Shown here in pieces: positions 4,668 to 44,908 of a stretch of 64,000 nt of DNA. The notes below the pieces were generated by a model. That model worked only from the letters and a program-made list of their open reading frames with translations, was not told the origin of the DNA and made no database searches. Location: positions 3,348,001 through 3,412,000 of the forward strand of contig NZ_CP019082.1 of the NCBI RefSeq assembly GCF_001956985.1, given 5' to 3'. Source of the DNA: Paludisphaera borealis (lineage in GTDB: Bacteria; Planctomycetota; Planctomycetia; Isosphaerales; Isosphaeraceae). How positions within the stretch are numbered: the stretch's first letter is position 1; each line of letters opens with the position of its first letter. The translations under genes were made by a program, and so were the position numbers.

Positions 4668-5843
4668 ATGTACTCGACGATCCTTGCTCTCCTGGCGCTG
4701 CTCATCCTCCCCGGCTCGGACGAACCCGCCGCGAAGAAGACCGACGAGGTTTCCAAGCAGCGGAGGGACGAATTCCACAAGCTGACCGTCGCAAACTTCG
4801 AGAACCGAGAGAAAGGCGGCGGTCTACCGTGGAATCACTTCGCGTCGCGCCATGTGGAACTCGCCGAGAAGAATCCCGAGGATTCTACCGGCTACCTGTC
4901 GCTGGAGGCCCTGGCGCTTGGCGACTCGTTCTCGACCGAGCCGACGGGCGACGACGCCATTCCTTACTTCTCGAAGGCGATCGACCTGTTAATCCGACAC
5001 CACGTGCAAGGGGGGCGGGCGTCCGATCTCGCTCAGCTCTTGGCATCACCTTCGCACTTCGGGTCGGCGTCGGCCCAGACCGAGCGATTCCTCCGGGAGG
5101 TCCTCGAAAAGAATCCGTCGGCCGAAACCCGGGCGGGGGCCGCGCTCAGCCTGGTCCGCTTCCTCAAGGGCAGGGCCGACCTCGCGCGTCGGCTGGAGGG
5201 CGACGACGGCGGGGCGCTCGCTCGACGGCTGGAAGCGACGTGGGGGCGTCCCTACCTGGAAGCCCTGAAGGCCTGTGATCCACAAAAACTGGACCAAGAA
5301 GCCGAGGGCGTCTCCCGGCGCGGTCTGAAAGAGCACGCCGAGTACTGGAAACGCCAGTCGCTTCCAGGACGCCAGGCTCTGGAGATCAACGGCGAGGACG
5401 TCGCCGGAAAGCCCATGTCCCTGAGCCAGTTCCGGGGCAAGGTGGTCGTGCTCTCGTTCTGGGGGTTCGGCTGCCTCCCATGCCGGGCGATGTTCCCGCA
5501 CGAGAAGGCGATGGTGAAGCGCATGGAAGGCCGCCCGTTCGTCCTGCTGGGCGTCGACGCCGACCTCGACCGGGCGAAGACCCTGGAACGTCTCGCCAAG
5601 GAGGGGATCACCTGGCGGTCGTGGTGGGACGGCGGCGAGAAGACGGTCGGACCGATCGCGGACGCCTGGCAAATCCGGTGCTGGCCCTCCGTCTTCGTGA
5701 TCGACCACAAGGGCGTGATCCGCTACCGAGACTTCCGCGGCAAAGAGCTTGAACTGATGGTCGATTTGCTCGTTTCGGACGCGGAAAAGGACCAGGACGC
5801 CGGCGTCCCGGCCGGGCGGGCCCAGTCCGCGCGAACGCCCTGA
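4668..5843 (+). CDS. TlpA-like thioredoxin-fold protein, exported (tandem paralogue)
   Basis: The start at ATG 4668 gives a short signal peptide (MYSTILALLALLILPGS) with GGAAAGG 8 bases upstream; the frame is open further upstream but that part is not signal-like. The architecture matches the neighbour at 3377-4606: a charged helical N-terminal region, then a TlpA/peroxiredoxin domain with FRGKVVVLSFWGFGCLPC and a CLPC redox centre, and a C-terminal CWPSVFVIDHKG segment with the cis-proline. The CxxC loop differs from its paralogue (CLPC against CAPC, GFG against GNW), suggesting a different redox potential or partner. The protein is about 391 residues long. Likely a second extracytoplasmic thiol oxidoreductase of the same operon. 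Confidence 0.83.
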   Translation: MYSTILALLALLILPGSDEPAAKKTDEVSKQRRDEFHKLTVANFENREKGGGLPWNHFASRHVELAEKNPEDSTGYLSLEALALGDSFSTEPTGDDAIPYFSKAIDLLIRHHVQGGRASDLAQLLASPSHFGSASAQTERFLREVLEKNPSAETRAGAALSLVRFLKGRADLARRLEGDDGGALARRLEATWGRPYLEALKACDPQKLDQEAEGVSRRGLKEHAEYWKRQSLPGRQALEINGEDVAGKPMSLSQFRGKVVVLSFWGFGCLPCRAMFPHEKAMVKRMEGRPFVLLGVDADLDRAKTLERLAKEGITWRSWWDGGEKTVGPIADAWQIRCWPSVFVIDHKGVIRYRDFRGKELELMVDLLVSDAEKDQDAGVPAGRAQSARTP

Positions 5844-5871
5844 ATGCGCGCGATTCGGATCTTACCCTCCG

Positions 5872-6408
5872 TCACAGACGGCCGATCCACTCCGACGACG
5901 GCAGGACTTCGCTGAGGAACTGCTGCTGGGCGCAGAGGATCGACTGCTGGAGTTCCTCGGCGGTCACCCGGCCGGCGGAGTTCGAGAGGGGCAGGGTGCC
6001 GGTGGCGTCGCTGAGGAACTCGGCCTTGAACCCGCGGTGGACGGCCTGGCGGGCGGTGGTGTCGCAGCACATGTGGGTCATGTAGCCGGCGATCGTGACC
6101 GTATCGATCCCGCGCTTGCGGAGCCAGTCCTCCAGCGGGGTATTGGTGAAGCTGCCCGGCAGGGTCTTCTCGATCCGCAGGTCATGGGGCCGTCCGGCCG
6201 CCTCGGGGTGAAGCTCCCACTCCTTGCTTCCCTTGCGGAAGATGGGTTTGTCCGTCGTGTGGTGCTGGATCACCACCACCGGAATCCGCCCTTCCGCCGC
6301 GTCCATCACGGCGAGAATCCGGTCGAGATGACCGACCGGGTAGGTGATCGGCAACGCTCCGGTGAAGTATTCGTTCTGCACGTCGATGACGAGTAAGGCG
6401 CGGCTCAT
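5872..6408 (-). CDS. Isochorismatase-family cysteine hydrolase
   Basis: The 178-residue protein has the full cysteine hydrolase fold signature: MSRALLVIDVQNEYF with catalytic Asp9, a lysine at about 81 (IEKTLPGSF), and GYMTHMCCDTTARQA with the nucleophile at Cys114. This Asp-Lys-Cys triad is shared by isochorismatases, nicotinamidases and N-carbamoylsarcosine amidases. The substrate cannot be assigned from sequence; an adjacent extra cysteine (Cys115) is present. It is convergent with the thioredoxin gene, 28 bases away, and no terminator is evident between them. The length is normal for the family. Confidence 0.9.
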   Translation of the reverse strand: MSRALLVIDVQNEYFTGALPITYPVGHLDRILAVMDAAEGRIPVVVIQHHTTDKPIFRKGSKEWELHPEAAGRPHDLRIEKTLPGSFTNTPLEDWLRKRGIDTVTIAGYMTHMCCDTTARQAVHRGFKAEFLSDATGTLPLSNSAGRVTAEELQQSILCAQQQFLSEVLPSSEWIGRL

Positions 6409-42212: not shown

Positions 42213-43613
42213 ATGCGACGGAGAATCAATCGGCAAAGCTTCCGCGTCGTCCTGGCCTTGCTCGGCGCCCTGGGTTGGACAGCTTGCCCCTCAGCCTCGG
42301 CCGGCGAGGCGCCGACACCGCCGAAGCCCGATCGCGAGGCCGTCGAGCGCGGCCGAAAGGCGCTGACGGAGCGCGGGTATCTCTATGCGGAATGGTCGGA
42401 CGCCGCCTATCGGGGCGCGTCGAAGTACTGGGACGAGCCCGCGCCCGATCCCGAGAAAGACCCCGAGGGCTACGCGCGCGCGTTCGGCCGCCACTACGGG
42501 TTTCATCCCGCTCCCTATCCCAACGACGGCCTGCCGATGGGCCTAAAGCGGAGCGTCAAGCGCGACGGCGTGACCCGAGGCATGCAGGTCGACTGCATGG
42601 TCTGCCACGGCGGCTCGATCGGCGGCAAGAGCTACGTCGGGCTGCCGAACACGCAGATCGACTACGAGACCTTCTTCCTCGACATGTTCCGGGCCGACGG
42701 CCGCCGCATGCCGATCATCCCGTTCATCCTGGGGACGGCCCGGGGGACGACCAACGCCGGGATGATGTCCGTGGTCTTGCTCAGCTTCCGCAACTCCGAC
42801 CTCTCGCGCCGGACGTTTCCCGTGCCGATGGGGTCGAACCTCCCCGAGCTGGACGCCCCGCCGTGGTGGGTCCTCAAGCGGAAGACGATGATGTACTACG
42901 ACGGCCGCACGCCGGCCGCCTCGGCCCGGGCCAACATGCAGTTCCTGCTCGCCGAGAAGAGCCTCGCCGAGTTCCAGGAGCTGGAGCCGACGTTCCGCGA
43001 CATCCAGGCGTACCTGATGAGCATCGAGCCGCCGAAGTACCCGTTCCCCATCGACGCCCCCCGAGCCGATCACGGACGGGTCGTCTTCGAGAAGTCCTGC
43101 GCGCGGTGCCACGGCACCTACGGCGAGACCGTTTCGTACCCCGGCAAGATCGTCCCTCTGGACGTCGTGGGGACCGACCCCGAGCGCATCCGAGGCATGG
43201 CCGACCGCGCCGTCGCCCACTACAACACGACCTGGTTCGCCGAGAAGCATCCCGTCCAGACCGACGAAGAAGACGGCTACCAGGCGCCGCCGCTCGACGG
43301 AATCTGGGCGAGCGCACCGTACCTCCACAACGGCTCGATCCCGACCCTGAACGCCTTGCTCGATTCGTCGACCCGCCCGAAGCGATTCACGCGCCCGCCG
43401 TCGACCGATTTCGAGCACTACGACTCACAAAGGGTCGGCTGGAAGTTCGAGGAGGTCGCCGAGCCGGCAACGACCAAGAAGCGGAACAGCTACGAGGCCC
43501 ACTTCATTTACGACACCTCGCGGTACGGCCTCAACAACGGCGGCCACACGTTCGGCGACAAGCTCAGCAAGGACGACCGGGCCGACCTGATCGAGTACCT
43601 CAAGACGCTGTAG
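42213..43613 (+). CDS. Di-haem c-type cytochrome, RoxA/peroxidase-like
   Basis: 466 residues with a signal peptide (RVVLALLGALGWTACPSASA). Two CxxCH haem sites: VDCMVCHGGSIGGKSYVG near residue 130 and SCARCHGTYGETVSY near 295. The C-terminal half has PPLDGIWASAPYLHNGSIPT, shared by RoxA-like and cytochrome c peroxidase-related proteins. It is probably a periplasmic redox protein. The substrate is unknown; RoxA itself cleaves rubber, but the family is broad. No operon partner is evident apart from the FG-GAP gene 107 bases downstream. Confidence 0.9.
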   Translation: MRRRINRQSFRVVLALLGALGWTACPSASAGEAPTPPKPDREAVERGRKALTERGYLYAEWSDAAYRGASKYWDEPAPDPEKDPEGYARAFGRHYGFHPAPYPNDGLPMGLKRSVKRDGVTRGMQVDCMVCHGGSIGGKSYVGLPNTQIDYETFFLDMFRADGRRMPIIPFILGTARGTTNAGMMSVVLLSFRNSDLSRRTFPVPMGSNLPELDAPPWWVLKRKTMMYYDGRTPAASARANMQFLLAEKSLAEFQELEPTFRDIQAYLMSIEPPKYPFPIDAPRADHGRVVFEKSCARCHGTYGETVSYPGKIVPLDVVGTDPERIRGMADRAVAHYNTTWFAEKHPVQTDEEDGYQAPPLDGIWASAPYLHNGSIPTLNALLDSSTRPKRFTRPPSTDFEHYDSQRVGWKFEEVAEPATTKKRNSYEAHFIYDTSRYGLNNGGHTFGDKLSKDDRADLIEYLKTL

Positions 43614-43720
43614 CGCGGTGCACGTGGGCGAGGGGCCGATTACAATAACGTCGTCCAAAGCCGCCGGGCGGCGAGGGGCCGTCCGGCCGCATCCACATTT
43701 CAACCTTCGAGGGATGAGCC

Positions 43721-44908
43721 ATGACATTGACGTTGCTTTCAATGCTCCTGGTGGCCACCGGGCCTGGCGGCGGCTCCGCCGAGTTCCAACCTCCGGTCCG
43801 ACTCAAGGCGGGCGACGTAGCGGTCCGGGTCGAAAGCCCGGGCTACGCGGCGCCTTGCTGGGCCGACATCGACGGCGATGGGAAGAAGGACCTTCTCGTC
43901 GGCCAGTTCAAAGGAGGAAAGATCCACGTTCACAAGAACCTCGGCGACGGCAAGCTCGCGCCATCCGAATGGCTGAAGGCCGAAGGCGCGGTGGCCGAAG
44001 TCCCCGGCGTGTGGTGATGCACCAGCTCGACTCCACAGTTTGTGGACCTCGACGGCGACGGACGTCGCGACATTCTCTCCGGATCGTATTCCCGCATGCA
44101 GAACGACATGGCGGGGCTGTTCCAGGTCCTGTACGGCAGGGAGGACGGGACGTTTCGTCGGGCGGAAGTCCTGAAGGGCACCGACGGCGAACCGCTCATC
44201 ATCCCGCTCAAGGGCCGGCAGATGACCGAGAACATCTGCACTCGTCCCTTCGCCATCGACTGGGACGGCGACGGAAACCTCGATCTCGTGGTCGGCACCT
44301 TCGCCGGCACGTTCCACCTCTTCAAGGGGCAGGGCAAGGGCAAGTTCCCGCCGGAACCTGAAGAGATCAAGGTGGACGGTAAGCCTCTGAAGATCGACGG
44401 CTACCACAGCGACCCGTTCGTGGTCGACTGGGACGGCGACGGCGACCTCGACCTCATGAGCGGTTCGAGCGAGGGCGGCGTACAATGGGCCGAGAATCGC
44501 GCCGGGCCGAGCAAACCTCCGCGGCTCAAGCCCTTCCGATCGCTGATCGATCATGGCCCACGGCTCGATTACGGCCAGGTCTTGCGCGAGGCGGACCTCA
44601 CGGGGCCTTCGGGCGACACGCGAATCTGGGTCGACGACGTCAATTCCGACGGCAAGCTCGACATCCTCGTCGGCGACATGACGCCGCTGATCTCCCCATC
44701 CGGTACGCTGACCGAGGCGGAGTTCAAGAAGAAATTCGCCGATTGGAACGCGTCGATCGGCGAGGCGGCCAAGGAGTTGAATGCCGCGGGCGCCGACCCG
44801 AAAAAGCAAAATGAGGCGCAGCAGCGTTACCAGAAGCTCTACGACCAGCGAAGCGATTTCATGAAGGAAGACAGGACGGGCTTCGTCTGGTTGTATCTGC
44901 GGAAATAA
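43721..44908 (+). CDS. FG-GAP repeat protein with in-frame TGA at codon 99: candidate selenoprotein
   Basis: One frame of 396 codons runs from ATG 43721 (signal peptide MTLTLLSMLLVATGPGGGSA) to TAA 44908, broken only by TGA at 44015-44017. The two halves are in the same frame, so this is a single-codon interruption and not a frameshift. Five calcium-binding-type repeats span it: one before the TGA (CWADIDGDGKKDLLVG) and four after (VDLDGDGRRDILSG; AIDWDGDGNLDLVVG; VDWDGDGDLDLMSG; VDDVNSDGKLDILVG). The codons around the TGA read Val-Trp-TGA-Cys-Thr-Ser. A hairpin with a GUU loop starts 9 bases after the TGA, matching bacterial SECIS rules. Either selenocysteine is inserted, or the gene carries a nonsense mutation or sequencing error. 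Confidence 0.7.
44027..44052 (+). promoter_or_regulatory. SECIS-like hairpin after the in-frame TGA
   Basis: TCGA (44027-44030) pairs with TCGA (44049-44052); a small internal loop follows; TCCACA (44032-44037) pairs with TGTGGA (44041-44046); the apical loop is GTT (44038-44040). The loop G is the 21st base after the TGA. Known bacterial SECIS elements have a G among the first loop bases and lie about 16-37 bases after the UGA. Confidence 0.55.

Follow-up and report, generated by a model that had tools for sequence, protein, structure and literature searches.

In the genome of the planctomycete Paludisphaera borealis we identify a gene for an FG-GAP repeat protein whose single in-frame TGA, codon 99, is in our reading decoded as selenocysteine (Sec), to which we assign a probability of roughly 0.97; no peptide or selenium measurement exists. 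The gene lies in a stretch of 64,000 nucleotides, referred to below as the window. The overall explanation, an exported propeller with a Sec99-Cys100 redox pair fed by the alpha domain of DsbD, we hold to be likely. Strong support exists for the reading frame, the pairing of TGA with Cys among homologs, the constraint on the RNA, the Sec machinery and the fusion of DsbD_N to relatives; export, the position of the pair in the propeller, the flow of electrons and catalysis are inferred.

One reading frame with a single internal TGA

Automatic ORF calling cuts the region into two frames. As the initial annotation had proposed, these are one frame split by a single TGA: 395 codons run from the ATG at 43721 to the TAA at 44906-44908, with exactly one internal TGA at codon 99, in the peptide context V-W-TGA-C-T-S-S (Table 1). 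Pfam places FG-GAP repeats both 5' and 3' of the TGA, and the joined reading matches PF13517 with 89.6 bits (cut-off 26.9) versus 42.5 and 67.9 bits for the two halves. Homologs of the encoded protein start with typical signal peptides or a lipobox.

Table 1. Features of the gene in the window, and neighborhood coordinates for one subfamily of homologs
Feature	Position	Strand	Remarks
Putative selenoprotein gene, FG-GAP repeat protein	43721..44908	+	395 codons and TAA, one internal TGA
Ribosome-binding-like GAGGGA	43709..43714	+	6 bases 5' of the ATG; from sequence
Probable export signal, residues 1-21	43721..43783	+	hydrophobic, ends G-G-S-A-E; read from the sequence, no signal-peptide program
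DxDGDG calcium-loop motif, blade 1, residues 49-57	43865..43891	+	
TGA codon 99, predicted to be read as selenocysteine	44015..44017	+	60 inspected genes have TGA at this codon, 13 have TGC/TGT
Codon 100, Cys vicinal to Sec	44018..44020	+	Cys in nearly all homologs
Lower 4-bp helix	44027..44052	+	44027-44030 with 44049-44052; present here, conservation absent
SECIS-like apical hairpin UCCACA-GUU-UGUGGA	44032..44046	+	+15 to +29 from the TGA; apical G 44038 invariant
DxDGDG motif, blade 2, residues 109-117	44045..44071	+	
DxDGDG motif, blade 3, residues 180-188	44258..44284	+	follows Cys173, a residue that is the same throughout the main clade
DxDGDG motif, blade 4, residues 236-244	44426..44452	+	follows His229, which the first alignment keeps in 34/36 rows
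DxNxDG motif, blade 5, residues 306-314	44636..44662	+	
Helical hairpin within the last blade, residues 332-379	44714..44857	+	structure model
Neighborhoods of the G-U-D-I-G-F-C subfamily	L084:576-3665 and 4925-6151; L087:574-3606; L086:4219-5427		

Homologs carry TGA or Cys at the aligned codon

Alignment with homologs, which the initial annotation had put forward as a check, gave either TGA or Cys at codon 99. Thirteen close relatives from public GTDB genomes (56-68% identity) have TGA at the aligned codon without exception (13/13), within the peptide W-U-C-T-S-S, and all are labelled planctomycete save one MAG labelled Verrucomicrobiales. For this close TGA member (L033), which lies on a contig of that label, transfer and misbinning remain unresolved.

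A search of the class found members in 48 of 398 genomes, with 39 distinct TGA genes, 12 genes with TGC or TGT and four divergent paralogs with Asp, Thr or His. The TGA forms show the motifs W-U-C-T-S-S-T-P-Q, Y-U-C-I-G-S-S-P-Q, G-U-C-V-G-F-T-P-Q, N-W-U-C-V-G-M and G-U-D-I-G-F-C-P-Q; in the last, the partner Cys is shifted, Asp standing at the position of codon 100 and Cys four residues further on. The Cys forms read Y-C-C-V-G, N-W-C-C-V-G or F-C-C-T-G, and the 12 of them occupy three separate places in a maximum-likelihood tree. At the level of the phylum, a profile search of 392 planctomycete genomes (E <= 1e-60) returned 125 matches in 98 genomes, about a quarter of those sampled, some with two to four copies. 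By a hand tally from the table of matches, 118 contain exactly one internal TGA (one of these also a TAG) and seven contain no stop. When 23 of the loci were opened, 22 had the TGA at the same place with the same motif (L113 repeats L057) and one, L116, had Cys. Altogether 60 TGA genes and 13 Cys genes were inspected one by one; the other phylum matches were left unopened. The initial annotation would have been refuted by homologs with an unrelated, non-Cys residue and no conserved hairpin. The alternation of TGA and Cys and the hairpin are both conserved, and unrelated residues are found in the four divergent paralogs.

Some members are notable for their surroundings. In two genomes a pair of TGA-bearing members is separated by no more than a few kb (G746:C1:3126506-3131891 and G544:C1:2881623-2884052), the first of these genomes having four family members in all. 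Two divergent paralogs, L082:3335-4621 (-) and L091, lack a TGA and show Asp-His in place of Sec-Cys, the redox pair being apparently absent; the former adjoins an M56-peptidase-WD40 protein. The subfamily with the shifted Cys has as neighbors very large proteins that combine ECF sigma-factor regions with WD40 propellers (L084, L087), and also WD40 genes.

A hairpin 3' of the TGA is under constraint in TGA genes

In bacteria, the small apical loop of a SECIS element opens with a G, which lies 16-37 nt 3' of the UGA. The hairpin found here satisfies this rule, its loop G being the 21st base after the TGA, as the initial annotation had noted, and this base is G in 60/60 TGA genes. Of the 4 + 6 base pairs originally described, the upper 5-6 hold across the family, with the five pairs joining +15 to +19 with +25 to +29 formed in 58-60 of the 60 TGA homologs, a level of conservation that greatly exceeds chance; the lower helix (UCGA/UCGA) is not conserved, its third pair forming in just 21/60. 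Minimum-energy structures from single-sequence folding of the region were variable, so we based the hairpin on conservation; an Rfam search of it returned nothing relevant.

Codon choice within the hairpin points the same way. In TGA genes Thr104 is encoded by ACT in 30/30 cases (9.6% elsewhere in these genes), Pro105 by CCA in 36/38 (background 9.9%) and Val108 by GTG in 37/37 (background 39.5%). CCA is found at the Pro105 position in none of the Cys homologs, and the rare ACT-CCA codons are fixed in TGA genes only. At +18/+26 a compensatory G-C replaces A-U in 5/60 genes, coupling a silent Pro change to a Val-to-Ala change. Pairing as observed was reached by 0 of 5000 shuffles, which ignore relatedness and give no formal probability. 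The comparison of sequences thus strongly supports the inference that the hairpin is kept beyond what the protein needs and that selection at the RNA level acts in TGA genes only. The Cys gene L097 bears, over the codons aligned to 99-112, an apparent remnant of the hairpin seen in its Sec sister L088, which suggests that Sec was replaced by Cys in that gene.

Selenocysteine machinery in the genome and across the phylum

The machinery for Sec insertion, named in the initial annotation as a further check, is complete in the 7.65-Mb genome of P. borealis: selA (476.4 bits) directly adjoins selB (319.6 bits, above the curated cut-off), and both selD (354.7 bits) and selC, the gene for tRNA-Sec (78.8 bits; anticodon tca according to ARAGORN), are present. 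Each refuting condition set by the initial annotation that could be examined was thereby decided in favor of the selenoprotein reading.

In the class, selA occurs in 31/32 genomes with a TGA form versus 2/12 with a Cys form, although 8 of these 12 belong to one genus and are hence not independent events. The phylum set, which includes one Cys-form genome (G575), has selA in 76/79 genomes and in 43/43 of those at least 90% complete; the three without it are all incomplete. The one exception among the 32 TGA genomes of the class (G224) is a 790-contig assembly that has a TGA member but no selA. Cys forms are found mostly in genomes without selA, and the main Cys lineage lacks it. In a further genome with a TGA family member, selA is reported with an internal TGA and TAA (G699:C70:13854-15215), possibly a broken gene or an assembly error.

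Predicted fold

The AlphaFold2 model (pLDDT 86.4, pTM 0.85) consists of strand groups with a helical hairpin inserted in the last, in agreement with the beta-propeller-type fold expected at the outset. Our reading of the strand list gives five predicted blades, each opening with a DxDGDG-type loop, and the protein is probably an exported, calcium-binding five-bladed beta-propeller, export being an inference. Sec99, Cys100, Cys173 and His229 would be placed around the propeller axis; this arrangement is inferred from the register of the repeats and comes without distances. Foldseek retrieved generic propellers only, with TM-scores of about 0.3-0.5. We rejected inferring a function from such generic matches or from those of a PDB sequence search.

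Association with the DsbD alpha domain and a proposed redox role

In Escherichia coli, the alpha domain of DsbD hands electrons from DsbD to periplasmic thiol proteins. This domain (DsbD_N, PF11412) recurs in and around members of the family. It is fused to the C-terminal end of a TGA member (L128, 47.4 bits) and to the N-terminal end of a Cys member (L097, 35.4 bits). It also appears at the C-terminal end of the Cys member L077, where the Pfam score of 16.5 bits is below the cut-off and a profile built from the neighbors in genus g27, which itself includes L077, scores 201 bits. In genus g27, DsbD_N is encoded by an adjacent lipoprotein gene in 8/8 loci, and at L061 a gene with a double DsbD_N domain is divergent from the Sec member. 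As the genome of P. borealis contains only two DsbD_N loci, such repeated proximity is unlikely to be due to chance. A genetic link between the family and the DsbD alpha domain is therefore present, but not at the window locus itself: most loci, that in the window included, have no DsbD_N gene nearby, and for these we assume that electrons are delivered from DsbD in trans.

The recurrence of DsbD_N, together with the role of the alpha domain in E. coli, leads us to take Sec-Cys as a redox pair reduced by domains of the DsbD-alpha type. In the mechanism we propose, SelB, tRNA-Sec and the hairpin just 3' would decode UGA codon 99 as Sec, and Sec99 and Cys100 would form a vicinal selenol-thiol pair in the loop that leads into the inner strand of blade 2. 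Most likely, this pair would cycle in the periplasm between its reduced form and a selenenylsulfide, with electrons supplied by DsbD-alpha-type domains, and the protein would act as a thiol-disulfide or peroxide-type reductase of unknown substrate. We favor this DsbD-coupled role over its absence with only modest confidence; the substrate is unknown and thiol exchange is without biochemical data. A counterpoint is provided by the four divergent paralogs, whose aligned residue is Asp, His or Thr and which indicate that the propeller can serve without a redox pair. The chances are about even for the wider proposal that members across the phylum are exported selenoenzymes, with a calcium-binding FG-GAP propeller, a catalytic Sec-Cys and a dedicated reductase of the DsbD-alpha type. 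In this proposal the partner Cys moved in some subfamilies and Sec changed to Cys more than once, partly with loss of the Sec machinery.

The gene upstream in the window (42213-43613) encodes a di-heme c-type cytochrome related to RoxA, cytochrome c peroxidase and MbnH. Since MauG-like enzymes modify Trp and the Sec has a Trp beside it, a functional link to this cytochrome suggested itself; we rejected it, as this neighbor is absent from every homologous locus examined. Comparison of the homologous loci revealed no conserved neighbor of the gene in the window.

Alternative readings of the Sec-Cys pair and of the TGA

Sec could be inserted and yet serve chiefly, along with Cys100, as a ligand of a metal such as copper or mercury, the site lying in the central opening of the propeller and including His229 and Cys173. 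The near-constancy of His229 (34/36 rows), the presence of Cys173 throughout the main clade and a His-Cys-Cys at the His229 position in the Cys clade of g27 would fit such a site, as would the CU motifs in mercury-related selenoproteins of a published catalogue (PMC13188914). Yet Cys173 is lost outside the main clade, His229 is replaced in several TGA subfamilies, and the DsbD_N fusions indicate thiol exchange. We consider this reading unlikely; of the unusual redox or metal site first suggested, the redox function has gained independent support from these fusions, while metal binding is neither demonstrated nor excluded.

We are equally doubtful that the propeller serves mainly in binding or adhesion, in the manner of a lectin or integrin, with the inserted Sec forming with Cys a structural or regulatory redox switch. 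FG-GAP lectins are the best Foldseek matches by E-value and integrin alpha chains the best matches of the PDB sequence search, but these reflect the shared repeat, the lectins reaching TM-scores of only 0.34-0.35, and a structural use explains poorly both the strict conservation of Sec or Cys and the DsbD_N fusions.

The TGA itself might be read through with another residue, either Trp or, by means of an unusual tRNA, Cys or Ser, or by a programmed read-through that is free of selenium. Sec-like tRNAs of an unusual kind, inserting Cys or Ser, do exist in some bacteria. The genome, however, has a normal tRNA-Sec along with selA, selB and selD, the nearest relatives without TGA have Cys and never Trp, RNA-level selection on the hairpin is confined to genes with TGA, and the main Cys lineage is without selA, which leaves this reading very improbable. 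That the TGA is a nonsense mutation or sequencing error in a pseudogene or between two genes, as the two frames of the ORF caller might suggest, can be ruled out for practical purposes, since the same TGA recurs in dozens of independent assemblies phylum-wide, the frame has no second stop and conservation of the protein extends to either side of the TGA.

Relation to known proteins and significance

With FG-GAP/VCBS propellers (PF13517, PF01839; integrin alpha, PVL lectin) the family shares the DxDGDG calcium-loop repeat and the exported propeller; it differs in having five repeats with a helical hairpin and, ahead of blade 2, a Sec/Cys-Cys loop. Where this loop lies, a generic VCBS protein from Agrobacterium shows a gap, and plasmid-borne VCBS proteins were set aside as distant, the one inspected being without the loop. 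Adjacent Cys and Sec are known from thioredoxin reductase, and a vicinal disulfide from the propeller of PQQ methanol dehydrogenase; the resemblance to these adjacent pairs is one of working principle only, with no sequence relation expected. DsbC, DsbG and CcmG are thioredoxin-like partners of DsbD. The propeller is not homologous to them, even though DsbD_N occurs in fusion with family members or next to them. SELENBP1 binds selenium and does not encode Sec. It resembles the family as a beta-propeller tied to selenium and thiols, with no relation detected; the accessible part of one source describes SELENBP1, or methanethiol oxidase, as a copper-dependent thiol oxidase (PMC10362175).

With known bacterial selenoproteins the family has in common the UGA, selABCD, a SECIS hairpin directly 3' and Cys homologs. 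A 2026 review of 119 prokaryotic selenoprotein families and subfamilies, in which most characterized selenoproteins are thioredoxin-like, contains no FG-GAP, VCBS or propeller entry (PMC13188914), no NCBIfam model (June 2026) exceeds its cut-off with the protein of the window or with four further members, and a full-text literature search, outside the scope of which most subscription journals lie, found no paper meaningfully joining the terms. The family is thus apparently uncatalogued. The supplement to a 2016 paper (PMC4807772) names candidate selenoproteins for two planctomycetes, and as this source was accessible only in part, an earlier listing of one member is not excluded. Since a standard ORF caller cuts such genes at the TGA, the family has probably been annotated as fragments.

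The initial annotation had remarked that selenoproteins of this fold were unfamiliar; what it described belongs to a phylum-wide family and is not a single oddity. Judging by our scan, a single phylum contains well over a hundred selenoprotein genes that belong to one uncatalogued family, and the calcium-binding propeller would become a host for selenocysteine. The family may be one reason why Planctomycetota retain the Sec system, and the natural occurrence of Sec or Cys forms in different genera would allow a direct test of the benefit of selenium outside the cytoplasm.
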